NCBI RefSeq assembly: GCF_900188485.1
Contig: NZ_FZPH01000033.1
Coordinates: 1-53,553, forward strand
Origin: Asanoa hainanensis
GTDB lineage: Bacteria; Actinomycetota; Actinomycetes; Mycobacteriales; Micromonosporaceae
DNA: 53,553 nucleotides
Reading direction: 5' to 3'
Positions 498 to 51,356 of this stretch are shown piece by piece. How positions within the stretch are numbered: the first letter of the stretch is position 1; each line of letters begins with the position of its first letter. The position numbers and the translations under genes were made by a program. Below the pieces are notes generated by a model, which did no database searches, was not told the DNA's origin, and worked only from the letters and a program-made list of their open reading frames with translations.

Positions 498-534
498 CAG
501 GAAGACAGTACCGGCCGGGTGTTGGGTGCCGGAA

Positions 535-581
535 ATGCGAAGAACCCTGCGCCCCTGGTACGGGCGGAGGGTTCCTCGCAT
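535..581 (-). terminator. Long imperfect hairpin, probable terminator after the small membrane-protein gene
   Basis: The arms are ATGCGA, GAACCCT and CGCCC (535-554) against GGGCG, AGGGTTC and TCGCAT (562-581). They pair over 18 bp with two single mismatches, around a 7-nt loop. The hairpin lies 18 bp beyond the stop of the small membrane-protein gene and just upstream of rarA on the same strand. There is no T tract, which is usual for high-GC actinobacterial terminators. Confidence 0.65.
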
Positions 582-599
582 GATCTCCCAGGCGAGCGG

Positions 600-815
600 T
601 CAGCCGCGACCGGGGCGGCGCCCGTAGAAGCGCCGGCCGGAGCCGGTGCCGGCCCGGGGACCGCTGCCGACCCCGGCGAAGTAGAGGGCGAGCAGCGTCA
701 AGCCGATGAGCACCAGGGTGTTCCAGTTGAACAGGTCCGGCGCGTTGAGATCGGTGTCGAAAAGGTCGAGCAGCAAGGCGAAACCGAAGACGATGGCCGC
801 AGCTACAGCGAGCAT
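600..815 (-). CDS. Small membrane protein, 71 aa, unknown function
   Basis: The ATG at 815 is preceded by an AGGAGG Shine-Dalgarno at good spacing, so I prefer it to the upstream in-frame start at 890. The protein starts MLAVAAAIVFGFALLLDLF and has two hydrophobic segments, about residues 2-17 and 32-47. Between them is an acidic polar stretch (DTDLNAPDLFNW), and a Gly/Arg-rich basic tail follows. This looks like a two-helix inner-membrane hairpin with a positively charged cytoplasmic tail. I do not recognise a family with certainty. It lies between the GNAT gene (opposite strand) and rarA. Confidence 0.7.
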   Translation of the reverse strand: MLAVAAAIVFGFALLLDLFDTDLNAPDLFNWNTLVLIGLTLLALYFAGVGSGPRAGTGSGRRFYGRRPGRG

Positions 816-924
816 CTCTATCCTCCTGAAAGCGGCTCCGCCCGAGGGGTTCGAGCGGGTGGCCGGGTCAATACCCACTCGGGTCACCACGCAATCCCGA
901 TGATCGATCGGCTACGTTGCCGCC

Positions 925-1629
925 ATGGCTGAACCCCTCGTCGGCCGGGACGCGGTGCTGGCCGCGGTGGGCGCGCATCCGTACGCCCGCCTCACCACCG
1001 GCGACACCGACGACGTCACGGGCGTCCGCGTCGGGTCCACTGTGGTCTGGGTCACCCGGTCCGGCACGGCGGTCTGCGCCCTGGGAGACGGCGCCGTCGC
1101 CGCTTCGGCGATTCCGTTGGTCGCCGCGGGGAGCGCGCGCTGGTGGCACCTGCCGCGCATGGCCGGCGCCCTGCCGGCCGAAGTCCAGGTCAAGTTCCGC
1201 GACGAGTGGGACTTCCGCTGGACCTCTGAGCCGCCGCCCATCCGCGCGGGCGAGGAGCGGGCGGAGCCGGTCGAGGACGACGCCGCCATCTCGGCGCTGC
1301 TGGACGTCGCGTTCCCGAGCACGACGACGCGACCCGGCGATTCCCGGGTACGGACCTGGTGGGGCATCCGCGACGGTGCCGACCTGGTCGCGTGCGCGGC
1401 CGACCGCAGTCGCGGTGGCGTCGGTTTCCTGTCCGGCATCGCGGTCCACCCGTCCGCCCGCGGCCGAGGTTTGGGCGCCGCGCTGACGGCGGCGTTGACC
1501 CGGAGGTTGGTCGCGGAGCTCGGGATCGCCGCCCTAGGCGTGATGACCGACAACGTGCCGGCGAACACGATGTACGAGGCATTGGGCTACACGTCGTCAA
1601 TCCCGCGTACGAGCGTCGGCCTCGCGTAG
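925..1629 (+). CDS. GNAT-family N-acetyltransferase
   Basis: A 234-aa protein with a C-terminal GNAT fold. Residues ~170-195 hold the acetyl-CoA pyrophosphate-binding motif A (VHPSARGRGLGAAL, the R-G-x-G-L-G loop), following the beta strand GFLSGIA. The C-terminal DNVPANTMYEALGY is the usual motif B/alpha-4 region (N-x-x-A-x-x-x-Y-x-x-x-G-F/Y). The N-terminal ~110 residues are a separate, less conserved domain (WHLPRMAGALPAEVQVKF), as in two-domain GNAT proteins that acetylate small molecules or peptides. The substrate cannot be inferred. The gene is divergent from the small membrane-protein gene and convergent with the reductase gene. Confidence 0.85.
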   Translation: MAEPLVGRDAVLAAVGAHPYARLTTGDTDDVTGVRVGSTVVWVTRSGTAVCALGDGAVAASAIPLVAAGSARWWHLPRMAGALPAEVQVKFRDEWDFRWTSEPPPIRAGEERAEPVEDDAAISALLDVAFPSTTTRPGDSRVRTWWGIRDGADLVACAADRSRGGVGFLSGIAVHPSARGRGLGAALTAALTRRLVAELGIAALGVMTDNVPANTMYEALGYTSSIPRTSVGLA

Positions 1630-1651
1630 CAGCGCCCGACGAACGCGTTGA

Positions 1652-1691
1652 GTGTTCCAGGAACACGGGCGTCGCCACTGCGGCAACGCCC
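1652..1691. terminator. Two tandem hairpins between convergent genes
   Basis: The first hairpin is GTGTTC/GAACAC (1652-1657 and 1661-1666, 3-nt loop). It is followed directly by GGGCGTCGCC/GGCAACGCCC (1667-1676 and 1682-1691, 9 of 10 pairs, 5-nt loop). They sit between the stop of the GNAT gene and the stop of the reductase gene, so they could terminate transcription from both sides. Confidence 0.55.
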
Positions 1692-1704
1692 GGCACGTGA
1701 TGCC

Positions 1705-2538
1705 CTAGCTCTTCGCGGCGGCCAGGATCTCCTCGGCTGGGCGGAATCGGGTCTTCAGGACCTCCGCCGCGCGGGTCGTGTCGAGGACGACTCGCGCCGG
1801 GCGGGTCAGGCCCGACTCGGCGATCGTCGAGCTGCGTAGGGCCGCGGGATCGAGGCCGTGTGCGCGGGCGACGAGCTCGCCGAGCTCCAGCCGGCTCAGG
1901 GCCTCGGGCCCGGCCACGTTGAGCATCCCCGCGTAGTCGCCTTCCGCCAGCTCCAGCAGCGCCGTGGCCAGATCGCCGACCCCGACCGGAACGCGGATCT
2001 CGTCGGTGAACAGGCGCACGCCGGAATCCGGCGATAGGGCCTCCAGGCAGAGCGACACCTGCTGCGACCGGGCGTCGGGCCCGATGATCAGTGAGCAGCG
2101 GACCACCGCCGCCCGCGGCGCGACGAGGCGGACAGCGGTCTCGGCCGCCGCCTTGGCCGCGCCGTAGGCGTAGACCGGTGTCGGATCGACGTCGTCGCCG
2201 TAGGGTGCCGGCCGTCCACCGTGGACAGCATCGCTCGACACGTGCACCAGCCGCGCGCCGACCCGCTCGGCGGCGGCCGCCACGTGCGCCGCGCCGGTCG
2301 CGGTGACGGCCCACTCGGCGTACGCGTAGGCGGTCGTCACCACCGTCCGCGGCCGCACCTCGTCGACGAGCCGGTCGACGGCGGCGCGGTCGCGCACGTC
2401 GACCCGGTGCCATCGCGTGCCCGGCACGGAACCGGGCCCGCGATGGTAGGTCGCCGCGACGTCGAAGCCCGCCGCGACCGCTTGCCGGCACACCTCGCCG
2501 CCGAGGTAGCCGCTCCCGCCGACGACCAGCAGCGTCAT
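1705..2538 (-). CDS. NAD(P)-dependent sugar-nucleotide-type reductase/epimerase (RmlD-like SDR)
   Basis: 277 aa from the ATG at 2538. The protein opens MTLLVVGGSGYLGGEV, a Rossmann GGxGYLG nucleotide-binding loop of extended short-chain dehydrogenases. Further on are VHVSSDAVHG (the catalytic Ser strand), and PVYAYGAAKAAAE, which carries the YxxxK active-site pair. The layout and length fit the RmlD/dTDP-4-dehydrorhamnose-reductase-like group better than classical SDRs. The substrate is unknown, and no other sugar-nucleotide genes lie nearby. It starts 22 bp after aspS on the same strand and is probably cotranscribed with it. An upstream in-frame start at 2685 would read back into aspS and lacks support. 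Confidence 0.8.
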   Translation of the reverse strand: MTLLVVGGSGYLGGEVCRQAVAAGFDVAATYHRGPGSVPGTRWHRVDVRDRAAVDRLVDEVRPRTVVTTAYAYAEWAVTATGAAHVAAAAERVGARLVHVSSDAVHGGRPAPYGDDVDPTPVYAYGAAKAAAETAVRLVAPRAAVVRCSLIIGPDARSQQVSLCLEALSPDSGVRLFTDEIRVPVGVGDLATALLELAEGDYAGMLNVAGPEALSRLELGELVARAHGLDPAALRSSTIAESGLTRPARVVLDTTRAAEVLKTRFRPAEEILAAAKS

Positions 2539-2560
2539 CGCGCCGCCGGACCCCGCCCGG

Positions 2561-4366
2561 TCATGGCGTGTGCTCGACGGGCACCGCGACCCCGGCGGTG
2601 CCGACGTGCGCGGCGGGAGCGGGCTTCGGCTTGGCGTCGACGCCGGCCTCCAGCCGCTGCTGCCCGGTGATCGGCGTCGGCGCACCGGTCAGCGGGTCGT
2701 AGCCGCCCCGCGTCTTCGGGAACGCGATCACCTCGCGGATCGAGTCGGCGCCGGCGAGCAGCATGCAGACCCGGTCCCAGCCGAACGCGATGCCGCCGTG
2801 CGGGGGCGGGCCGTACTTGAAGGCTTCGAGCAGGAAGCCGAACTTGTCGGCCGCCTCGTCGTCGGTGATGCCGAGCAGGGTGAACACCCGGCGCTGCACG
2901 TCGCCGCGGTGGATACGGACGGAACCGCCGCCGATCTCGTTGCCGTTGCAGACGATGTCGTAGGCGTAGGCGAGCGCGCGGTCCGGCGCCTCCTCGAACC
3001 GGTCCATCCACTCGGCGTTGGGCGAGGTGAACGGGTGGTGGACGGCCGTCCAACCGCCCTCGTCGTCCTTCTCGAACATCGGCGCGTCGGTCACCCAGCA
3101 GAACGCCCACGCGTCGGGGTCGGCCAGGCCGGCCCGCTTGGCGATCTCGATGCGGGCGGCGCCGAGCAGCTCCTGCGCCTCGCGCGCCTCGGCGGCCGCC
3201 GCGAAGAAGATGGCGTCGCCGGGCTTGGCGCCGACGGCGTCGGCCAACCCTTCGAGGTGGCCCGCGCTGAGGTTCTTGGCGACCGGACCGCGCGCCTCGC
3301 CGGTCTCGGCGTCGAGCACGACGTAGGCCAGGCCCCGGGCACCACGCGCCTTGGCCCAGTCCTGCCAGCCGTCGAGCTCCTTGCGACTCTGCGCCGCGCC
3401 GCCGGGCATGACGACCGCGCCGACGTAGCCGCCGGCCTCGATCGCGCCGGCGAACACCCGGAACTCGGTGCCGCGCAGGTAGTCGGTCAGCTCGGTCAGC
3501 TCGACCCCGTAGCGCAGGTCAGGCTTGTCGGAGCCGTAACGCGCCATCGCGTCGTGCCAGGTGATCCGCGGGATCGGCCGGTCGATGCGGTGGCCGGCCA
3601 GCTCCTCCCACAGCGCACCGACGATCGCCTCGCCCAGGTCGATCACGTCGTCCTGGGTGATGAACGACATCTCGATGTCGAGCTGGGTGAACTCGGGCTG
3701 GCGGTCGGCGCGGAAGTCCTCGTCGCGGTAGCAGCGGGCGATCTGGTAGTAGCGCTCCATGCCCGCCACCATCAGCAGCTGCTTGAAGAGCTGCGGCGAC
3801 TGCGGCAACGCGTACCAGCTGCCGGGTTGCAACCGCACCGGGACCAGGAAGTCGCGGGCGCCCTCGGGCGTCGACCGGGTCAGGGTCGGCGTCTCGATCT
3901 CGTTGAAGTCGCGGTCGTGCAGGACGCGGCGCGCGATCTGGTTGGCCTTGCTGCGCAGCTTGAGCGCGTTGGACGGCCCGCTGCGGCGCAGGTCGAGATA
4001 GCGGTGACGGAGCCGGATGTCGTCGCCCGCGTCGATGTTGTCGTCGACGGGCAGCGGCAGCGGAGCGGCCTCCGAGAGCACCTCGAGGACGGTCGCGTTG
4101 ACCTCGATCGCGCCGGTCGGTAGCTCGGGGTTCTCGTTGCCGGCCGGGCGCGCGGCGACGTCGCCCTCGACCCGGACGCAGTATTCGTTGCGGAGGTGGT
4201 GGGCGTCTTCCTCGCGGAAGACCACCTGGACCACGCCCGACGCGTCACGGAGGTCGACGAAGATGACCCCACCATGATCACGACGGCGGGCCACCCACCC
4301 GGCCAAGGTCACCGCGCTGCCGGCGTCCGTGGCACGCAGGCTTCCGGCATCATGGGTACGGATCAC
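2561..4366 (-). CDS. aspS: Aspartyl-tRNA synthetase (bacterial type)
   Basis: Charges tRNA(Asp) in the cytoplasm. The N-terminal OB-fold anticodon-binding domain is [23 protein letters not shown]. The class II catalytic core includes [22 protein letters not shown] and [19 protein letters not shown] (motif 2 with its arginine). Motif 3 is [10 protein letters not shown] near the C terminus. The bacterial-type GAD insertion lies between motifs 2 and 3. The GTG at 4366 ([11 protein letters not shown]) has an AGGAGA Shine-Dalgarno 9 nt upstream and gives 601 aa. The in-frame ATG at 4387 would put that ribosome site inside the gene, so I rejected it. Whether it also charges tRNA(Asn) (non-discriminating type) cannot be decided here. 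It is divergent from the SWIM gene. Confidence 0.97.
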
Positions 4367-4450
4367 GACGGTCGCTCTCCTCGACATTGGGGTACGGCGT
4401 TGCGGGGTCGATTCTCGCAGGGCTGGTTGGTGGCGGAAGCCCGCACCCCC

Positions 4451-4493
4451 GGCCTGTGGATAAGGTTTGGTGTCTCGCGGTTATCCACAGGCC
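4451..4493. promoter_or_regulatory. Inverted pair of perfect DnaA boxes (13-bp inverted repeat)
   Basis: GGCCTGTGGATAA at 4451-4463 is repeated exactly as TTATCCACAGGCC at 4481-4493, with a 17-bp spacer. Each arm contains the full consensus DnaA box TTATCCACA. The pair lies in the divergent intergenic region between aspS and the SWIM/DUF5691 gene, about 40 bp before the latter's start. It could be a DnaA-controlled promoter element or a DnaA titration site. It could also simply act as a hairpin. No dnaA, dnaN or gyrase gene is near, so it is not oriC. Confidence 0.7.
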
Positions 4494-4530
4494 GCCAAAA
4501 TTCGTCGTACATGAGTTCTAAGGTTTGCGC

Positions 4531-7506
4531 GTGTCCGTCGAACGCTGGTCTCCCGACAAGGTGCTCTCGCTCGCGCCCGACCAGGGCGCGGCCAAGAGCG
4601 GCCGTGGTCTGATCACCGCTGCCCACTGGGCAGGCCAGGGCCGTTTCGACGACATGCTCTGGGGCCTGTGCCGAGGCTCGGGTGCGCGGCCTTACCAGGT
4701 CTGTGTCGATTTGACCGGTCCGGCCTACCGCTGCACCTGCCCGAGCCGCAAGATCCCCTGCAAGCACACCCTCGGGTTGCTGCTGCGCTGGGCCAACGGC
4801 GGCGTTCCCGACGACGAGTCGCCACCCGAGTGGGCGACGGAGTGGCAGGCGGAGCGCGCGGCCCGCTCGCAGCGCGCGCCTCGGGCGCCGCGCACGGCCG
4901 GCGAGGGCCTGGCAGATCCGGCAGCCGCCGCACGCCGGGTCCAGCAGCGCGCCGACCGGGTCGAGGCAGGGCTGGTCGAGCTCGACCGCTGGCTGACCGA
5001 CCAGATCGAGCAGGGTCTGGCGGCGGCCGAGCAAGCCGGTTACCGGCCCTACCAGACGATGGCCGCCCGGCTGGTCGACGCACAGGCACCGGGCATCGCC
5101 GGCGGCGTCCGCCGGCTGGGCTGGGTCGTCGGCGTCGGCACCAACTGGGCCGACCGCCTCCTGGGCGAGCTCGCCCTGCTCCGGCTGCTGATCGTCGCCC
5201 ACGGCCGGCTCCCGGCGCTGCCACCGGGGCTGGCGGCGACCGTCCGCACCCGCGTCGGCTACCCGGTGGCCACCGACGACGTGCTGGCCGAGCCGGAGAT
5301 CCGCGACCGGTGGGAGGTGCTGGGCCGCCTGGACACGGCCGACGACCGGCTGACGAGCCGACGCACCTGGCTACGCGGCGAGCTGAGCGGACGGTTCGCG
5401 CTGGTCCTGGCCTTCGCGCCGGCCGGCCAGACCCTGCCGACCGACCTCGAGCCCGGCACGGTGCTCGACGCCGGCCTGTGCTTCTATCCGGCCGCCGTGC
5501 CCAGGCGGGCGCTGGTCAAGGTCCGCTACGGCGAGCCGGTCCCGGTCTACACCACTCCACCGGGCGCGGTCCCGATCCGCGCCGCCGTGACTGAGCACGC
5601 GCGCGCGGTCGCCGCCGAGCCCTGGCGCGAGTCGACCCCGATGCTGCTCGCCGACGTGACGCCCACCGACGACGGCCACCTGGTCGACCCCGCCGGCGAC
5701 GCGGTCGCCCTGCACCCCGACGACGACCAGCCGTGGTGGCTCATCGCGGCCGCGGGCGCCCGCCCGGTCGTGGTGGCCGGCGAATACGGCCACACCGGCT
5801 TCCGCCCGTTGGCAGCCTGGCCCGACGGTCGCCACGTCCCCGCGGCACCGGGCGAGCCGCGGGCGGCCGCCTCGGGCGGCGGTCCCGAGCTACCGGCCGA
5901 CCTGCTGTCGGCCGCGCTGGTGGGCACCGCCCGCCGGCCATGGTCGGCCGCACGCCTCGACGTCGGCGGCGGCCACCGCCTTTCCCTCTCGATCCCGGCC
6001 AACCTCCACACCGAACCCGCCGGCGAGCCCGAAGACGCCGATGTGGTCGGCCAGGGCCGCGCAGGGGATGGAGACGGTGGGTCCGGTGGGTCGGCGCGCG
6101 CGCTGCTCGAAGCGGCGGCGGTCGCCCTCACCTACCGGCGGGCGGCGGAGACGCCGCTGGTCGGTCGGCCGACGATCCCTCCGGCGCCCGACGAGGTCCG
6201 CCCCGTCGTCCCGCCGCCCGCGGCCGCCCGGCTCGACCTGCTGCTCACCGAGGGCGCGACCGGCTGGGGTGGGCCCGCGCAGCGGGCCGTTCTCGGGCAG
6301 TGGCTGGTCGAGGCCGGCAAGCGGCAACTGCTCGCGCCGCCGGAGACGCTGCCCATCCTGCTCGACCTCGGCCGACGCGACACCGGGCTGCGGCCGGCGC
6401 TGGGCGCGGTCGCCGGGCGGCGCGGCCACTGGCTGGCGCAGCGCCAGGCCGACTGGCGCTACTTCCGGGACGTGGGCGGTGAGGTGGCCGCCGCCGACTC
6501 GCAGGACTGGTTGACCGGCACGCCCGGCGAACGGCTCGCCTATCTCGTGGCGCTCCGCGCCGGCGACCCGGCCAAAGGCCTCGAGCTGCTCACCGAGACC
6601 TTCGACGCGGAGCCGCCGCACGACCGGGTGCTGCTGCTCGGCGCACTCGAAACCGGGCTCCACGTGCGCGACGAGGCGCTGATCGAGCACGCGCTCGACG
6701 ACCGGCGGCGCGAGATCCGCCAGGTCGCCGCCGAGTTGCTGCGCAAGTTGCCCGGGTCCGCGCTGGGCGAGCGGATGGCCACCCGCACCGCCGCCAGCGT
6801 CCACTTCGCCGACGGCGCGCTGGTGGTCACGGCACCGTCCACCATCGACGCGGCGATGCTCCGCGACGACATCGACCCGTCGCCGCCCCGGGGCGTCGGT
6901 CTCGGTGCCTGGCTGCTGGAAGAGATCGTTTCGGCGACACCGCTGGAGTTCTGGACCACGCTGACAGGCCGCGACCCTGGCGGCGTCATCACGTCCCCGG
7001 TCGCCGACGGATGGCAGCCGGTGCTGCTCCGGGGGCTCGCCCGGGCCACCGCTGCCCAGCACGACCCGGTGTGGGCCGCCGCCCTGCTCGACCTCGCCGA
7101 CGCGGCACCGGCCGAGCTCAACGGCGACGGGCTCGGCGACCGGCTGACCTGGCCGCTGCTCGAGGTGTTGCCGGGCGGCGAGCGGGGCCGGCGGGTGGCC
7201 GCCGCCCTACGCCGGGACACCGCGGCCGGCATCCGGTTGCTGCACTTCTGCGCCGGCGACTGGTCCGACGAGCTGGCGTCCGCGGCGTTGCGGGCGATGG
7301 CGATACTCGCGCCCGACAACGCCTGGCAGCTCTCCGAGCTCTGCCGGCTGGCCATGCCCGCCATGCCCACCTCGTTCGTCGGCCGGGTCGAGACCTTGAT
7401 CCGGTCCCTCGACGGGCTGCCGGAGGGCCGCCGCTCCGCCCGCTACCTGGCCCAGCTTGCCGCCGTGCTCAGCTTCCGCAACGAGATGATCGAGGAGTTC
7501 GAATGA
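4531..7506 (+). CDS. SWIM zinc-finger domain protein fused to a DUF5691-type C-terminal region
   Basis: 991 aa from the GTG at 4531, which has AAGG 7 nt upstream; the TTG at 4525 is too close to it. An N-terminal SWIM zinc finger is clear: C68-x-C70-x6-C77-x-H79 (YRCTCPSRKIPCKH). Such fingers bind DNA or protein partners. Residues ~120-430 form a helical, charged region. After a Gly-rich hinge near 440 and PELPADLLSAALVGTARRPW, the remaining ~540 residues look like the helical-repeat DUF5691 type usually annotated as a separate neighbour gene; that assignment is from memory. The stop overlaps the MoxR start (ATGA), so the four genes to 12095 form one translationally coupled operon. Function unknown. 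Confidence 0.8.
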   Translation: MSVERWSPDKVLSLAPDQGAAKSGRGLITAAHWAGQGRFDDMLWGLCRGSGARPYQVCVDLTGPAYRCTCPSRKIPCKHTLGLLLRWANGGVPDDESPPEWATEWQAERAARSQRAPRAPRTAGEGLADPAAAARRVQQRADRVEAGLVELDRWLTDQIEQGLAAAEQAGYRPYQTMAARLVDAQAPGIAGGVRRLGWVVGVGTNWADRLLGELALLRLLIVAHGRLPALPPGLAATVRTRVGYPVATDDVLAEPEIRDRWEVLGRLDTADDRLTSRRTWLRGELSGRFALVLAFAPAGQTLPTDLEPGTVLDAGLCFYPAAVPRRALVKVRYGEPVPVYTTPPGAVPIRAAVTEHARAVAAEPWRESTPMLLADVTPTDDGHLVDPAGDAVALHPDDDQPWWLIAAAGARPVVVAGEYGHTGFRPLAAWPDGRHVPAAPGEPRAAASGGGPELPADLLSAALVGTARRPWSAARLDVGGGHRLSLSIPANLHTEPAGEPEDADVVGQGRAGDGDGGSGGSARALLEAAAVALTYRRAAETPLVGRPTIPPAPDEVRPVVPPPAAARLDLLLTEGATGWGGPAQRAVLGQWLVEAGKRQLLAPPETLPILLDLGRRDTGLRPALGAVAGRRGHWLAQRQADWRYFRDVGGEVAAADSQDWLTGTPGERLAYLVALRAGDPAKGLELLTETFDAEPPHDRVLLLGALETGLHVRDEALIEHALDDRRREIRQVAAELLRKLPGSALGERMATRTAASVHFADGALVVTAPSTIDAAMLRDDIDPSPPRGVGLGAWLLEEIVSATPLEFWTTLTGRDPGGVITSPVADGWQPVLLRGLARATAAQHDPVWAAALLDLADAAPAELNGDGLGDRLTWPLLEVLPGGERGRRVAAALRRDTAAGIRLLHFCAGDWSDELASAALRAMAILAPDNAWQLSELCRLAMPAMPTSFVGRVETLIRSLDGLPEGRRSARYLAQLAAVLSFRNEMIEEFE

Positions 7507-8564
7507 CCGCCCTGCGTCCGCACGCGGAAGAGTTCTACGCGGAAGAGCTGGCCGCGCTGGCCGCCGACGACGACCGTCCCCGCCCGCCCGGCTGGCGGCT
7601 GTCGCCGCAGGCGGTGGTCACCTATCTGCTGGGCGACGGCGGCAAGATCACGCCGAAGTACGTCGGGTCCCGCCGGCTGATGGAGGTCGCGGTCGCCACC
7701 CTAGCCACCGACCGCGCGCTGCTCCTGCTCGGCGTGCCAGGCACCGCCAAGACCTGGGTTTCCGAGCATCTCGCCGCCGCGATCTCCGGTGACTCGACAC
7801 TGCTCGTCCAGGGCACCGCCGGCACGCCCGAGGAGGCGATCCGCTACGGCTGGAACTACGCCCGGCTGCTCGCCGAAGGCCCGTCGCCGGCGGCGCTGGT
7901 GCCGAGCCCGGTTCTGCGCGCGATGGAGACCGGCGCGATCGCCCGGGTCGAAGAGCTCACCCGGGTTCCCTCCGACGTCCAGGACGCGCTGATCACGATC
8001 CTGTCCGAGAAGACGCTGCCGGTTCCCGAGCTCAACACCGAGGTCCAGGCCCAGCGCGGCTTCAACGTGATCGCGACCGCCAACGACCGTGACCGGGGCG
8101 TCAACGAGCTGTCCAGCGCCCTGCGGCGCCGGTTCAACACCGTGGTGCTGCCGGTGCCGGCCACGTTCGACGAAGAGATCGACATCGTCACCCGCCGGGT
8201 CGCGCAGCTCGGCCGTTCCCTCGATCTACCCGAGACCACGACGGCGCTCGACGAGATCCGGCGCGTGGTCACCGTGTTCCGTGAGCTACGCGACGGCCAG
8301 ACCGACGACGCCCGCACCAAGCTCAAGTCACCCACCGGCACGATGTCGACCGCCGAGGCGATCTCGGTCGTCACCAACGGCATGGCGTTGGCCGCCCACT
8401 TCGGCGACGGCGTACTCCGCGCCGGCGACGTGGCCTCCGGCATCGTCGGCGCCGTCATCAAGGACCCGGTCTCCGACCGCGTCGTGTGGCGTGAATACCT
8501 GGAGACGGTGGTCCGCGAACGCCCAGGGTGGGCCGACTTCTACCGCGCCGCCCGCGATGCCTGA
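7503..8564 (+). CDS. MoxR-like AAA+ ATPase
   Basis: 353 aa. It is a MoxR-family AAA+ ATPase with Walker A GVPGTAKT (residues 77-84). The Walker B-equivalent region is EELTRVPSDVQDALI (~150-164), which aligns with the usual DEINRAPxxVQxALL but has Glu in place of the first Asp. Sensor 1 is FNVIATAND (187-195), and ALRRRFNTV (206-214) carries the arginine-finger region. MoxR ATPases work with VWA-domain partners as chaperones for metal insertion or protein remodelling, and a VWA gene lies two genes downstream. The ATG at 7503 overlaps the previous stop by 4 nt, and the gene overlaps the next start by 8 nt. The ATPase should be the motor of this operon (inference). Confidence 0.93.
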   Translation: MTALRPHAEEFYAEELAALAADDDRPRPPGWRLSPQAVVTYLLGDGGKITPKYVGSRRLMEVAVATLATDRALLLLGVPGTAKTWVSEHLAAAISGDSTLLVQGTAGTPEEAIRYGWNYARLLAEGPSPAALVPSPVLRAMETGAIARVEELTRVPSDVQDALITILSEKTLPVPELNTEVQAQRGFNVIATANDRDRGVNELSSALRRRFNTVVLPVPATFDEEIDIVTRRVAQLGRSLDLPETTTALDEIRRVVTVFRELRDGQTDDARTKLKSPTGTMSTAEAISVVTNGMALAAHFGDGVLRAGDVASGIVGAVIKDPVSDRVVWREYLETVVRERPGWADFYRAARDA

Positions 8565-10908
8565 GCGCTACTACGGCATCCGCCACCACGGGCCAGGCTC
8601 CGCCCGTGCGGTCCTCCGTGCCCTCGAAGAGCAGCGACCCGACATCCTGCTGGTCGAGGGCCCACCCGAGGCCGACGACCTGATCGCGTGGGCGGCCGAC
8701 GACCGGCTGCAGCCGCCGGTGGCCCTGCTCGGCTACGCCGCCGACAACCCCCGCCGGGCCGCCTTCTGGCCGTTCGCCGTCTTCTCTCCGGAATGGCAGG
8801 CCATCAAGTGGGCAGTCGCCAACGGCGTCCCGGTCCGCTTCTTCGACCTACCGTTCGCGCACCGCCTCACGTCCCGCAAACCCACCACCAACGACCACAC
8901 GCCCGCTGAAGTGCCCACATTGGACTCGCCGGCCGGCCGCGAGCCCGCCGCGCCGGAGGCAAAACCAGACAGAGCGGGCGGAGACGGATCCGAAACAAAC
9001 GGTCCGGGCGGGCCTGCGGCGGACTCCGATCCGGATGGGTTGGACGACGACGGGCCGATGCCGGGGCCGCCGGCGCCGGAGTTGCGGCCGGTCGATCCGA
9101 TCGGTGAGCTTGCCGCCGCCGCGGGCTACGACGACCCCGAGCGCTGGTGGGAGGACGTGGTCGAGCACCGGCAGGCACCCGCGTTCGAGGCGATCGAGGA
9201 GGCGATGACCGAGGTCAGGGCAGGTGCGCTGGAGGACCCCTACGACCTCGTGCGCGAGGCGCACATGCGCACCGTCCTGCGCCAGGTGCGCCGCACTCAC
9301 AACGAGATCGCCGTGGTCTGCGGCGCGTGGCACGTGCCCGCGCTCCGCGCGAAAGTCACTGCCGCCCACGACGCCGCGCTGCTCAAGGGTGGCAAGCGCC
9401 GCGGCAAGGTGCGGTTCACCTGGGTTCCGTGGACCTACGGGCGGCTGGCCTCGTGGCAAGGCTATGGCGCGGGCGTCGACTCGCCAGGCTGGTACCACCA
9501 CCTCTTCACCACCACCGACGAGGTCGTGCCGCGTTGGCTCGTCGGCGCGGCCGGCGTGCTCCGCGACGAGGGCGTAGACACCTCCCCCGCGCATGTCATC
9601 GAGGCGACGCGGCTGGCCGAGGCGCTCGCCACCATGCGTGGGCGCCCGCTCGCCGGCCTGGCCGAGGTCACCGACGCGTCGGGTGCCGTGCTCTGCGAAG
9701 GCGACGACCTCCGCCTGCAGCTCATCGGGCGCAAGCTGGTCGTCGGCGAGCGGCTGGGCGAGGTGCCCGAGGGCGTACCGACCGTTCCGCTCGCCCGTGA
9801 CCTGGAGGCCCGCCAACGGGCCGCCCGCCTCAAACCGTCGGCGCTCGACCGGGCGCTGGACCTCGACCTGCGCAAGGACACCGACCTCGCGCGCAGCCAC
9901 CTGCTGCACCAACTCCGTTGCCTGGACGTGCCCTGGGGCGAGCCCGAGGAACGGCGGGGCAGCACCGGCACCTTCCGCGAGGAGTGGGCGCTGCGCTGGC
10001 AGCCGGAGTTCTCGATCCGGCTGGTGGAGGCGAGCGGTTACGGCACCACCGTGGTCGGCGCGGCCACCGCACAGGTCTCGGCCGCGGCGGCCAAGGCGAC
10101 GACGCTGGCCGAGGTGACCGCCCTGCTCGAGACCTGCCTGCTCGCCGACCTGCCCCTCGCGCGGCCGGCGGTGCTGCGCGCCCTCGACGCCCGGGCCGCC
10201 GAGGACGCCGACGTAACCCACCTGATGGCCGCGATCCCCGCCCTGGCGCGCACGGTCCGCTACGGCGACGTCCGCCGCTCCGACGTCGCCGCCGTCGCCG
10301 CCGTGGTGAAGGGGCTGCTGGCCCGGGTCTACGCCGCACTCCCGCCGGCCGCCTCGGGCCTGTCCGACGAGGCCGCCGCCGGCCTGCGGGACCACATCGA
10401 CGCCGTGCACACCGCGGTCGCGTTGCTCGGCGACGACGCCGAACGCACCAGGTGGCTCGACACCCTCACCGCGCTGACCACCCGCGACGACCTGCACGGG
10501 CTGCTGGCCGGCCGGCTCACCCGCCTGCTGCACGACGCCGGCCGGCTGTCCACAAGGGACGCCGGGCTGCGGCTCGGTCGCGCGCTGACCGCGGGCGTGC
10601 CGGCGGCGACCGGCGCGGCCTGGGTCGAAGGCTTCCTCGCCGGCGGCGGCCTGCTCCTGATGCATGACGACAGCCTGTTGTCACTCGTCGACGACTGGCT
10701 CGCGGCCATCCCGGCGGACGCCTTCACCGAGGTGCTACCCCTGCTCCGCCGCACCTTCGGCACCTTCGCGACCGGCGAGCGCCGCGGCATCGGCGAGCGG
10801 GTCGCCGGCGGGGGCGCGACGAGAACAGCCACCGCCGTACTGGACCACGACACGGCGGCGCTCTCCCTGCCCACCTTGAGCGCGCTCCTGGGACGGAGGA
10901 TCGAATGA
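8557..10908 (+). CDS. DUF5682-type protein with TraB/ChaN/EreA-like motifs
   Basis: 783 aa. The N terminus RYYGIRHHGPGSARAV (His10, His11) is followed by RPDILLVEGPPEADD (Glu34). After an Asp/Pro-rich low-complexity insertion (~105-180), NEIAVVCGAWHVPAL holds His259. This H...E...GxxH order resembles the TraB/TIKI/ChaN/erythromycin-esterase-like superfamily, whose members are metal-dependent hydrolases or haem/iron binders; the link is my inference from motifs. The C-terminal ~500 residues are mostly helical with no motif I recognise. MoxR-VWA operons of actinobacteria often carry such a gene. It overlaps moxR by 8 nt and the VWA gene by 4 nt, so it should be made in step with them. Confidence 0.8.
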   Translation: MPERYYGIRHHGPGSARAVLRALEEQRPDILLVEGPPEADDLIAWAADDRLQPPVALLGYAADNPRRAAFWPFAVFSPEWQAIKWAVANGVPVRFFDLPFAHRLTSRKPTTNDHTPAEVPTLDSPAGREPAAPEAKPDRAGGDGSETNGPGGPAADSDPDGLDDDGPMPGPPAPELRPVDPIGELAAAAGYDDPERWWEDVVEHRQAPAFEAIEEAMTEVRAGALEDPYDLVREAHMRTVLRQVRRTHNEIAVVCGAWHVPALRAKVTAAHDAALLKGGKRRGKVRFTWVPWTYGRLASWQGYGAGVDSPGWYHHLFTTTDEVVPRWLVGAAGVLRDEGVDTSPAHVIEATRLAEALATMRGRPLAGLAEVTDASGAVLCEGDDLRLQLIGRKLVVGERLGEVPEGVPTVPLARDLEARQRAARLKPSALDRALDLDLRKDTDLARSHLLHQLRCLDVPWGEPEERRGSTGTFREEWALRWQPEFSIRLVEASGYGTTVVGAATAQVSAAAAKATTLAEVTALLETCLLADLPLARPAVLRALDARAAEDADVTHLMAAIPALARTVRYGDVRRSDVAAVAAVVKGLLARVYAALPPAASGLSDEAAAGLRDHIDAVHTAVALLGDDAERTRWLDTLTALTTRDDLHGLLAGRLTRLLHDAGRLSTRDAGLRLGRALTAGVPAATGAAWVEGFLAGGGLLLMHDDSLLSLVDDWLAAIPADAFTEVLPLLRRTFGTFATGERRGIGERVAGGGATRTATAVLDHDTAALSLPTLSALLGRRIE

Positions 10909-48689: not shown

Positions 48690-48695
48690 ACGTTA
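48690..48695 (-). promoter_or_regulatory. -10 box of a leaderless promoter (GH13 gene)
   Basis: TAACGT on the minus strand ends 7 nt before the GTG at 48682. Confidence 0.5.
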
Positions 48696-48735
48696 CCGGC
48701 GGACGGGAGAAGTCTCGCGTTCGACCACTGTGGAC

Positions 48736-48744
48736 TGTGGATAA
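48736..48744 (-). promoter_or_regulatory. Single consensus DnaA box
   Basis: TGTGGATAA, the complement of TTATCCACA, occurs at 48736-48744. It lies between the GH13 start and the end of the frameshifted membrane-protein gene. It is the only further full match to the 9-bp consensus I noticed besides the pair at 4451-4493. Confidence 0.45.
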
Positions 48745-48753
48745 CCCAACAAG

Positions 48754-49235
48754 TCAGTCCGGCGCCTTGGCGGCCGCGCCGGCGACGCAGAAGAACCCCG
48801 CGACGACGCTGCCGACGACCAGGACTGGTCCGTACCACCACGCGTAGCGAGCGGCCTCGTCGTTGGCCAGCGCACCCACGACGAGAACCACCGGCCCGAC
48901 CAGAACAAGGGCCGGCAGGGCATAGCTGACACCGACGGCGGTACGCGGCCCGCCGGTGAGCCGGCCAAGGGGCCGGCAAGGAGCGCGGCCACCGCCATCA
49001 GCAGAGCGCACAGCAAGGTCCACGCGCCGACGAATGCCGGGATCGCCGCCCGATCACCCTCCTCACCAGTGAAGGGAAACGAGGTGCCGGCGGCGACCTC
49101 CTGCTGAAACCAGACTGTTGTCAGCCGCGTCAGCAACCAACTGCACGCGAAAAGACCCAGACAGATCGCGGGCGCCAGCCACCGCAACCGCCCGAGCAGT
49201 CGCCAACGCGCCTCAGTCCACTCGATCCCGCGCAC
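48754..49235 (-). pseudogene. Frameshifted small membrane protein
   Basis: The first part, from the GTG at 49235 (VRGIEWTEARWRLLGRLRW), encodes two membrane helices up to ALLMAVAALLAGPL. It then runs into hydrophilic nonsense in its own frame. The hydrophobic continuation (TAVGVSYALPALVLVGPVVL ... SVVAGFFCVAGAAAKAPD) is in the next frame and ends at 48754. Adding one base in the 4-base run at 48969-48972 (GGGG on the plus strand) restores one ~160-aa, four-helix protein. So this is either a 1-nt deletion or a homopolymer sequencing error. TAAGGT (49242-49247, minus strand) lies 6 nt before the start. Function unknown. Confidence 0.65.
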
Positions 49236-49301: not shown

Positions 49302-49778
49302 TCATGCGCGCGAAGACCGACCGCGAACTGGCCGAATGACTGAGACGAACACCGGGAACACGTGCTCGGGTGCGGTGTCGCCAGCGGTGGCCGGCTCCAG
49401 ATCTGACCAGGCCACAACTCCGGGATGCGGATCGGCCGCGATCAGCGCCACGACCGGAGACGGGTCGAGCACCACTTCGAAGCGACCGCCGAAGGGCAAC
49501 GCGTCGGGACCCGTCGAACGCATCGAACAGCGAAGCTGGCCAGCCTGCTCGTCGTACCAGGCATAGAACGTGGCAGTCCCGTCGTCGCCACCGTGGCGCG
49601 CGCGCAGCCCCGCGCCGACGTCGACCAGTGCCTGGGAGACCAGGTCAGCATCGACAGGCCCCGGCGGAATTCCGAACCACACGGTGTTCGCCGGCGACTC
49701 TCGCTCCGGGTTCGCGGGGTCGAGGACCGTCCACTCATCGAGGTAGGACCGGATCAACCCGGCCAGATCAGCTGACAC
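49302..49778 (-). CDS. Hypothetical protein, 158 aa
   Basis: From the GTG at 49778 (VSADLAGLIRSYLDEWTVL), preceded by a G-rich stretch. It is soluble and acidic with alternating short strands and helices: TATFYAWYDEQAGQLRCSMR, LPFGGRFEVVLDPSPVVALI, EHVFPVFVSVIRPVRG. I recognise no family or motif. The pattern resembles small cytoplasmic immunity-like or regulatory proteins of actinobacterial accessory regions, but that is not evidence of function. It lies just beyond the duplicated yebC fragment (49803-49834), the proposed edge of the vapBC islet. Confidence 0.6.
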   Translation of the reverse strand: MSADLAGLIRSYLDEWTVLDPANPERESPANTVWFGIPPGPVDADLVSQALVDVGAGLRARHGGDDGTATFYAWYDEQAGQLRCSMRSTGPDALPFGGRFEVVLDPSPVVALIAADPHPGVVAWSDLEPATAGDTAPEHVFPVFVSVIRPVRGRSSRA

Positions 49779-49802: not shown

Positions 49803-49834
49803 GCGTCGATCAGGGCCATCACGTCGTCGGACAC
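49803..49834. repeat. 32-bp direct repeat: displaced copy of the yebC 3' end
   Basis: These 32 bases are identical to 50608-50639, which encode the last residues of YebC (SDDVMALID). Here they lie 17 bp beyond the vapC stop and are not in a gene. Likeness stops sharply on both sides. The two copies bracket the 0.8-kb vapBC segment like attachment sites. Confidence 0.85.
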
Positions 49835-49850
49835 CTCCGACGAGGCGAGA

Positions 49851-50255
49851 TCACAACCCTATGGATATCCGATGCTGCGCCAGTTGTGGGATCAGGCGCG
49901 CTGCGGTCTCGAAATCGGCGTCCTCGTGCAGCACGACGAGCTTGAGACGAATCGCGGTGGCGCACACGAGATGGTCTGCGACGGAAAGTCCTTGATGCCG
50001 GCTCTGCGACGCCAGCTCACGTCGCACGGATGTGACCATGGCCCACACGTCGTCCGGCACAGGAACCCAGGGGTAGGCGGCTCGGAGCTCCTCCTCGGCC
50101 CGGGCGTAGCTCTTGGCGTCGGCGATCGTGAGCGTCTCGACGAGCACGGGATCACAGATAGCGACAAGCCCTCGATCGACCGCGTCATACCAAACCGGAT
50201 CGACCTGACGCCGAATGATTCGGACCAGCGCGCTCGTGTCGACGAGGTACTTCAC
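49851..50255 (-). CDS. vapC: VapC-type PIN-domain ribonuclease toxin
   Basis: 134 aa from the ATG at 50255. The PIN acidic residues are in MKYLVDTSALVRI (Asp6), DPVLVETLTIADA (Glu), SVADHLVCATA (Asp) and VVLHEDADFETAA (Asp). VapC toxins cut tRNA or rRNA and are blocked by VapB. It overlaps vapB by 4 nt (ATGA), the usual type II layout. The pair sits between yebC and a stray copy of the yebC 3' end. The target RNA cannot be predicted. Confidence 0.93.
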   Translation of the reverse strand: MKYLVDTSALVRIIRRQVDPVWYDAVDRGLVAICDPVLVETLTIADAKSYARAEEELRAAYPWVPVPDDVWAMVTSVRRELASQSRHQGLSVADHLVCATAIRLKLVVLHEDADFETAARLIPQLAQHRISIGL

Positions 50256-50464
50256 TTGTCGAGCTCGTCGAGCCGGTCGAAGTCGAACCCACCCTCATCC
50301 GCGAGGCGCTGCAGGCTTTCCAACGCCACGCGTCGGCGTTCCCGCGAAGACTCGACCGCTTGCCGCAGCGCCTCGTTCACCGTGTCTTTCTTCGTCGCGG
50401 TGCCCAGAGCCGTCGTTGCTTCCGCAAGAAGATCATCGTCAACGTCAATCAGGGTCTTCGCCAT
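50252..50464 (-). CDS. vapB: VapB-type antitoxin
   Basis: 70 aa from the ATG at 50464, with GGAGG 8 nt upstream. The N terminus MAKTLIDVDDDLLAEATTAL, followed by GTATKKDTVNEALRQAV, is a ribbon-helix-helix DNA-binding domain of the VapB/DUF2191 type. The C-terminal LADEGGFDFDRLDELDK is the toxin-neutralising tail. It should repress its own operon with VapC through the GGATATCC boxes at 50484-50530. Confidence 0.92.
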   Translation of the reverse strand: MAKTLIDVDDDLLAEATTALGTATKKDTVNEALRQAVESSRERRRVALESLQRLADEGGFDFDRLDELDK

Positions 50465-50483
50465 TCCAACACCTCCAAGCGGA

Positions 50484-50530
50484 GGATATCCACGACCCTA
50501 ACGGATATCCAGCCGGCAGCCAGGATATGC
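50484..50530. promoter_or_regulatory. vapBC promoter with repeated palindromic operators
   Basis: The palindrome GGATATCC occurs at 50484-50491 and 50503-50510. A partial copy GGATATGC is at 50523-50530. They are 19-20 bp apart, two helical turns. A minus-strand -10 box TAGGGT (50495-50500) sits between the first two. VapBC binding there would block the promoter. Confidence 0.6.
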
Positions 50531-50557
50531 GTGTGACCTGCCTGCCAATTGAGATGA

Positions 50558-50587
50558 CAAGACCCCCGAGTCTCGTCGGGGGTCTTG
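50558..50587 (-). terminator. yebC terminator hairpin
   Basis: CAAGACCCCCGA (50558-50569) pairs perfectly over 12 bp with TCGGGGGTCTTG (50576-50587) around a 6-nt loop. It starts 16 bp after the yebC stop and lies before the vapB promoter. Confidence 0.85.
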
Positions 50588-50603
50588 GGAGCGAATCCGT
50601 GCG

Positions 50604-51356
50604 TCAGGCGTCGATCAGGGCCATCACGTCGTCGGACACGTCGAAGTTCGCGTACACGTTCTGGACGTCGTCGCAGTCTTCGAGCACGTCGATCAGCTTG
50701 AAGATCTTGCGGGCGCCTTCCTCGTCGAGCGGCACGTTGACGCTCGGCACCAGCGACGACTCGGCCGACTCGTAGTCGATCCCCGCGTCCTGCAGCGCCG
50801 TCCGCACCGGCACGAGGTCGGTGGGCTCGGAGACGACCTCGTACGCCTCGCCCAGGTCGTTGACCTCTTCCGCGCCCGCGTCGAGGACGGCCAGCAGCAC
50901 GTCGTCCTCGGAAAGCCCGGTCTTCGGGACGATCACGACACCCTTGCGCGTGAACATGTACGACACGGAGCCGGCGTCCGCGAACGAGCCGCCGTTGCGG
51001 GTCAGCGCGGTGCGCACCTCGGTCGCCGCCCGGTTGCGGTTGTCGGTCAGGCACTCGATCAACAGGGCGACACCGTTGGGGCCGTAACCCTCGTACATGA
51101 TCGTCTGGTAGTCGGCCCCGCCGGCCTCGAGCCCCGACCCACGCTTGACCGCGCGGTCGATGTTGTCGTTGGGAACGGAGCTCTTCTTGGCCTTCTGAAT
51201 AGCGTCGTACAGCGTGGGGTTACCGGCCGGATCGCCACCACCGGTGCGCGCCGCGACCTCGACGTTCTTGATCAGCTTGGCGAACATCTTGCCGCGCTTG
51301 GCGTCGATGACGGCTTTCTTGTGCTTGGTCGTCGCCCACTTTGAGTGGCCGGACAT
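50604..51356 (-). CDS. yebC: YebC/PmpR-family protein (TACO1 homologue)
   Basis: 250 aa from the ATG at 51356, with GGAGG 7 nt upstream. The family opening is [20 protein letters not shown], with [20 protein letters not shown] and [11 protein letters not shown] later, and the C-terminal domain [19 protein letters not shown]. YebC was long called a transcription regulator; recent work on the family points to relief of ribosome stalling at proline runs. The last codons ([10 protein letters not shown]) are repeated at 49803-49834, beyond vapC. In most actinobacteria it lies between pdxT and ruvC; here accessory genes intervene. Confidence 0.96.
50608..50639. repeat. 32-bp direct repeat: 3' end of yebC
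   Basis: Identical to 49803-49834. This copy is the functional end of yebC. The two copies are 805 bp apart and enclose the yebC terminator, the vapBC promoter and the vapBC genes. Confidence 0.85.

Follow-up and report, generated by a model that had tools for sequence, protein, structure and literature searches.

The 32-bp piece of the 3′ end of yebC that recurs exactly on the far side of a vapBC toxin-antitoxin pair points most probably to an attR scar, left by a serine-integrase element that targeted yebC, with vapBC remaining beside it. Specifically, we hold with a probability of about two in three that the distal copy and an adjoining 25-bp arm are the relic attR of a large serine recombinase (LSR) element that used the yebC 3′ end as its attB, that the element was mostly lost with vapBC left behind, and that the yebC tail was restored. 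The attR scar is the best reading because the arm matches the end of an LSR island and because open LSR genes lie directly after yebC in relatives. It builds on the repeat itself, the likeness of the arm, the LSR genes at yebC in another genus and the swapped yebC tail of a close relative (G003); from these we infer the origin of the copy by LSR integration, the status of vapBC as cargo and the restoration of the tail.

An exact repeat of the yebC end around vapBC

The window is the whole stretch of DNA analysed here, 53,553 bases long, and all positions refer to it unless another locus is named. The features of the islet are as follows.

49302..49778, minus strand: 158-aa open reading frame of unknown family, just past the distal copy (no Pfam or NCBIfam match)
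49803..49834, minus strand: distal 32-bp copy, putative attB half of attR (displaced yebC 3′ end), without a stop codon (repeat and arm likeness)
49834..49858, minus strand: arm GGTTGTGATCTCGCCTCGTCGGAGG, putatively one half of an LSR element's attP, with one base in common with the distal copy (21/25 against the G136 arm)
49851..50255, minus strand: vapC toxin, PIN domain, stop codon within the arm (PF01850, E 8.6e-12, above the Pfam cut-off)
50252..50464, minus strand: vapB antitoxin (PF09957, E 1.5e-9, above the Pfam cut-off)
50558..50587, minus strand: perfect 12-bp hairpin in the yebC-vapB interval, probably a terminator (-23.5 kcal/mol on folding, z -4.6)
50604..51356, minus strand: yebC (TACO1/YebC family; PF01709, PF20772), its last ~36 bp the proposed attachment region, attB (tail swap in the genus)
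50608..50639, minus strand: proximal 32-bp copy, inside yebC (exact repeat)

Direct comparison confirmed what a sequence-only reading of this DNA had claimed, namely that an exact repeat flanks vapBC: 49803-49834 and 50608-50639 are identical at 32/32 bp, and their starts are 805 bp apart. Taking in three further positions on the side that lies within yebC, one of them a mismatch, brings the likeness to 34/35. No longer exact direct repeat is present across the window, and Markov shuffling of the 2.9-kb region (300 replicates) gave longest exact repeats of 11.8 bp on average and 16 at most. At up to three mismatches the 32-mer has exactly two sites in the 8.64-Mb draft genome (44 contigs), both of them here. 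The repeat had also been described as the coding end of yebC. It does come from the yebC 3′ end, but it stops one base short of the stop codon: counted back from -1 at the final stop-codon base, it spans -36 to -5, leaving uncopied the TGA (50604-50606) and the third base of the preceding Ala codon (50607), so that the distal copy has no in-register stop codon.

The only genes between yebC and the distal copy are vapB and vapC, whose reading frames share 4 bp; the islet is thus free of an integrase, as had been stated. vapC matches the NCBIfam VapC model at E 1.5e-11, under that model's cut-off, and for vapB no NCBIfam match was found at E<=0.01. The terminator earlier placed inside the islet corresponds to the 12-bp hairpin, whose folding energy was matched by none of 200 shuffles; a similar hairpin is visible in a relative (G005), and a terminator scan requiring a T-run did not return the one at 50558-50587. 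The 158-aa frame has no Pfam or NCBIfam match, and tblastn does not find it within 3.5 kb behind yebC in the five remaining genomes of the genus. Further on, at 48693-49235 on the minus strand, overlapping 180- and 89-aa frames appear by eye to be the two parts of a frameshifted gene for a single small membrane protein.

A tyrosine integrase was also considered. PF00589 has no match anywhere on the window's contig, and in G003 and G005 the nearest same-contig match is >180 kb from yebC. With no tyrosine integrase at the site, a tyrosine-integrase island was rejected, and the dyad CCTCGTC-N-GACGAGG was dropped as a tyrosine-recombinase site once LSR genes were found there.

Variation behind yebC in the genus and the family

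Six genomes of the genus were compared, the window's included, and what lies in the interval from yebC to an amylase gene, the next conserved one, differs among all of them. G001 is insert-free, only 72 bp separating its yebC stop from the amylase-side homology; this is the empty site, with one copy and no vapBC, that had been suggested as a check. G002 has ~0.8 kb with two short ORFs, and G004 a single gene for a small membrane protein (M). The second ORF of G002 (L034, G002:C136, about 3290-3935) has weak matches, below cut-offs, to MobA/RelB models, and the pair is possibly another toxin-antitoxin-like one. In G005, vapBC (with vapC internally deleted) is followed by the first part of the arm, no tail copy, and then M. 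In the closest relative by flanking DNA, G003, M is followed by the arm, by 32 bp that exactly copy this genome's yebC tail, and then by an apparent remnant of a second M. The yebC tail of G003 is spelled differently from the window's and the cargo is different too, so that an exact tail repeat around another cargo favors the earlier proposal of integration at the yebC 3′ end. vapBC is missing at the yebC site in 4/6 of these genomes.

The sequence-only reading had suggested that vapBC may be a minimal cassette whose insertion made the repeat, and had named as evidence against itself a relative with vapBC here and no repeat. G005 is such a relative. Its vapB and the 5′ part of its vapC are 89-90% identical to the window's, most flanking DNA is 87-88% identical, and the spacer preceding vapB 74%. 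Since vapBC is shared at background divergence with a genome that has no repeat, it need not have made the repeat. As the divergence is close to background and both pairs abut the arm, the cassette looks older than the split between the window and G005, and judging from these alignments it is probably older than the identical tails.

The tail of yebC itself has been exchanged. The yebC genes of the window and G003 differ at 34/717 positions over bases 1-717 and at 12/36 positions at the end (Fisher p 2.7e-7). Numbering the last stop base as 0, G003 still has the window's bases at -51 and -45 but diverges from -33 onward, which sets the boundary of the swap between -45 and -33. The tail of G004 shows a weaker excess (7/36 vs 45/717, p 0.009). 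Ordinary tails are seen in the window, G005, G001 and G002, with 2-4/36 differences between them, the last 36 bp of the window's yebC being of the native type (2/36 vs G005 and 2/36 vs G001). As far as sequence comparison goes, then, the last 36 bp of yebC can be swapped within the genus, and a swap of a gene's final stretch alone is the trace expected from integration there.

Across the Micromonosporaceae, 3 kb after yebC were scanned for tail copies in 108 regions, four of them duplicates. The set used later comprised 109 regions (five regions added, G332 left out, the four duplicate loci removed, and G247 and L044 taken as one contig); G107 was added for scoring of the arm and attP′, making 110. 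Clear second tail copies were present in seven genomes: the window's, G003, G281, G140, L044 (M. gifhornensis), G212 (M. andamanensis) and G317; weak copies in G223 and G268 were excluded from the seven. In different lineages the copies start at about the same point, ~36 bases upstream of where the stop codon ends. In G212 and G281 the order is yebC - M1 - decayed copy - vapBC - decayed copy - M2, vapBC being itself decayed in G281, and in G317 it is yebC - M1 - one copy - M2, without vapBC. On the M1 side G317 agrees well with G281 (276/295 positions) and with G212 (277/295), and on the M2 side at 47/60 and 38/60 (ungapped). A vapBC unit has thus been gained or lost between tail copies.

Several Micromonospora have vapBC after yebC with no tail copy above noise, again at odds with vapBC as the maker of the repeat. 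vapBC lies <= about 1 kb after yebC in 15/109 regions, a count that is not a frequency, the set having been partly picked through VapC. The yebC tails of these 15 look native. In most of them VapC is 73-78% identical to the window's (PdxT, 69-72%), and two have a more distant pair, with VapC 57-63% identical. In M. tuberculosis, VapBC41 adjoins yebC. A consensus of the yebC tail, searched at <=3 mismatches in 354 genomes, was never found twice in one genome; it occurred once each in 102, and 252, the window's genus included, had no match. At another locus, in Catellatospora sp. KI3 (L045, 4690-5440), a vapBC relative directly follows another gene, by eye GntR/FCD-like, and 13 bp from the end of this gene, ACCTCGACCCGGC, are repeated just past vapC.

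Serine recombinase elements at yebC and the arm

LSR genes are located at the yebC 3′ end in three genomes, broken in G136 and open in G315 and G295, and this bears out the view of the site as a target of integration. G136 and G107 were reached by inspection of yebC genes with odd tails. In G136, which belongs to another genus, yebC has a foreign tail, and a broken LSR frame (Resolvase PF00239, E 1.7e-18) starts ~10 bp past the stop. The island, a decayed one, is 3.3 kb long and of lower GC, and it ends with GGTTGTGATTCCGTCTCGTCTGAGG and a native-type yebC end with its stop. A search with the LSR protein matched 25 of 354 family genomes at E<=1e-30. The closest relatives were those of G315 (71%) and G295 (69%), both Micromonospora, and among the loci returned only G136, G315 and G295 had the LSR next to yebC. 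In the two Micromonospora the gene lies directly after yebC, which has a foreign tail nearly as in G136. The G315 protein has Resolvase, Recombinase and zinc-ribbon domains. Its element is located as follows.

L202 (G315:C12:1-19999), about 500-9460, reverse strand: element at the yebC 3′ end, ~8.9 kb

Besides the LSR it encodes an endonuclease VII-like protein, an AAA protein, a Phage_capsid-family protein and an HTH protein, and with this content it looks like a small phage or a satellite of one. Its far end is GGTTGTGAAACCGTGTCGCAC followed by GACGTCTCCGACGACGTCATGGCCGCGGTCGACGCCTGA, the latter being the original yebC end; the contig of G295 stops short of the far end. G107 probably has a further decayed element behind yebC: its yebC ends in a foreign, AT-rich tail, like the other foreign tails by eye only, followed by ~2 kb with a GntR-type (GntR/UTRA) regulator (L173, G107:C3:161700-181699, about 830-2930). 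The yebC tail of G102 (L146), DETLALLDM, is in register with attP′-type tails, with a score of 17/25 that is within noise. In 328 genomes drawn from the order, G214 alone had an LSR relative at E<=1e-90 (44% identical). In sum, sequence evidence indicates that elements do integrate at the yebC 3′ end in Micromonosporaceae.

How the window relates to these elements depends on the arm. The 25-bp arm of G136, a query independent of the window, was compared without gaps with the 110 yebC downstream regions (3,000 bases per region, G136's own arm lying outside that span). The window and G003 each scored 21/25, in both cases directly before the yebC-tail copy. The next best region scored 17/25, the other strand 16 at most and shuffled queries 17 at most. 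With the G315 arm the window scored 16/25, the best other regions 17 and shuffled queries up to 18; this arm does not single out the window, and the link therefore rests on G136. The arm derived from the window and G003 was exact at these two loci only among 61 genomes, with three other places at 2 mismatches. A joint pattern of window and G136 occurred at 6 places in 5 of 354 genomes, with 0 mismatches at both sources (by construction), 2 in G003, and 3 at three places in G125 and G332. By eye, shorter remnants of the arm start follow vapC in G005, G120 and M. gifhornensis.

Serine integrases recombine attP and attB into the hybrids attL and attR, and the attP sites of the A118 integrase family are described as pseudo-palindromic with 25-bp half-sites (PMC3783163). 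Read as attP halves, the arm and the foreign yebC tail of G136 form a dyad that 11/2000 shuffles equal; the corresponding dyad of G315 is not significant (318/2000). The window has what is expected of attR, an attP-like half-site joined to a displaced attB half, as scored with the G136 arm; the G315 arm alone does not detect it. What is expected of attL, a yebC with an attP′-derived tail, is not seen: the tail is native and scores 14/25 against the attP′ half, within noise (shuffled maximum 18). Nor is there an LSR gene in or beside the locus, and the genome to which the window belongs showed no LSR relative at E<=1e-30 among the 9 of 22 first-look candidates that were scored. A reading of G003 as a tandem element was dropped, its distal tail being unlike the attP′ half (14/25, noise).

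Origin of the islet and comparison with known systems

Integration would have joined an attP half to the displaced original end of yebC, forming attR on the far side, and yebC would have received a new, element-encoded tail, forming attL. The arm and tail copy of the window would then be P + B′, i.e., attR. The recombinase and nearly the whole element would subsequently have been lost in the window's lineage, and vapBC, with its stop codon in the arm, would have stayed as the last gene of the right end. Since the yebC tail is native today, the attL side would have to have been restored or replaced. The simplest route may be homologous recombination with a sibling chromosome in which yebC was untouched; it would yield identical tails and would require homology to the right of yebC, for which vapBC is a guess. 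With no attP′ half at the yebC tail, only one junction of the expected pair is seen, and restoration has to be assumed. The status of vapBC as cargo is drawn from its abutting the arm, the LSR loci examined having no vapBC. It does not fit this history that the window has a native tail, the same as the far copy, where a foreign one is expected; in G003 both tails are identical as well, though of another type. The 32/32 exactness suggests a young duplication, whereas vapBC and the arm start are shared with G005 at background divergence.

Other histories were weighed as well. The original proposal, a minimal recombinase-less vapBC cassette recently inserted in trans at the yebC 3′ end (attB - vapBC - attR), would give the exact repeats of the window and, with other spelling and cargo, of G003, and it agrees with the absence of vapBC in most of the genus, with the G212 and G281 pairs set between two decayed copies, and with the single copy of G317. 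Also, tblastn at E<=1e-3 finds no relative of this vapBC in the 20-kb G315 stretch, G295, G136 or G107, so vapBC may have its own history. We nevertheless consider it unlikely: the cassette looks older than the split from G005, serine integrases are reported to need a directionality factor for reactions beyond attP × attB (PMC3783163), and the patterns and settings used disclosed no free copy in viral, plasmid or phage collections. Three yebC-tail patterns had 0 matches in viral contigs, an arm-core pattern had 14 that by eye are not followed by yebC ends, and arm plus tail matched 6 plasmid and 5 phage records, none covering 80% of the query. Movement in trans found no direct evidence either; the recombinase that did turn up is an element-borne serine integrase. 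An extended form seems rather improbable to us: the yebC 3′ end would have arrays of cassettes without recombinases, with short genes such as vapBC or those for small membrane proteins as cargo, and each cassette would end in an attR-type site made of an element half and a yebC half. The serine integrase of a phage-like element would move them in trans, in the order attB-cargo-attR instead of attL-cargo-attR. If true, it would be a cassette system outside integrons.

Recombination may also be left out altogether. vapBC could be a long resident after yebC, the repeat having arisen by duplication, slippage or gene conversion without a recombinase, and the 15 regions with native-looking tails and a VapC about as conserved as PdxT would fit. 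We find this quite doubtful because copies in different lineages start at about one place, and because conversion does not account for an arm that two lineages share with an LSR island. Least probable of all appears to be the idea that the tail copy was kept for a hairpin of arm and tail that would end vapBC transcription (TCGTCGGA-GGTG-TCCGACGA). Such a hairpin is predicted (-18.9 kcal/mol over 48 nt, z -2.0, 6/200 shuffles as good), but it leaves the origin of the copy in the yebC end and the LSR islands at the site unaccounted for.

On the preferred reading, a relic attR, the yebC 3′ end is a likely attB for a family of serine-integrase elements in at least two genera of an actinomycete family, and the open recombinase genes are possible integration tools for hosts of this kind. 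We found no report in the literature tying yebC to an integrase site, and "yebc" has 0 occurrences in the main text of an LSR survey (PMC10083194).

Considered as a toxin-antitoxin module, the window's pair is like other type II VapBC modules, with a PIN toxin frame overlapping that of a VapB-type antitoxin, and nothing unusual was seen in it except its position. A cis-mobilizable element (CIME) is defined as a decayed element that keeps both attL and attR (PMC5704250). The islet is like a CIME in being a remnant at the 3′ end of a housekeeping gene, its integration and transfer genes lost and only vapBC left between yebC and the distal copy, and differs in that the attR-like side alone is recognizable. 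LSR elements have the recombinase gene directly at the attachment site, as in G315, G295 and G136; the window differs in having neither that gene nor the attL side, and is like them in its attR-like junction of an element half-site with a displaced gene end. It thus offers a worked example of a short islet with a repeat that can be read, via its relatives, as the probable scar of a lost element.
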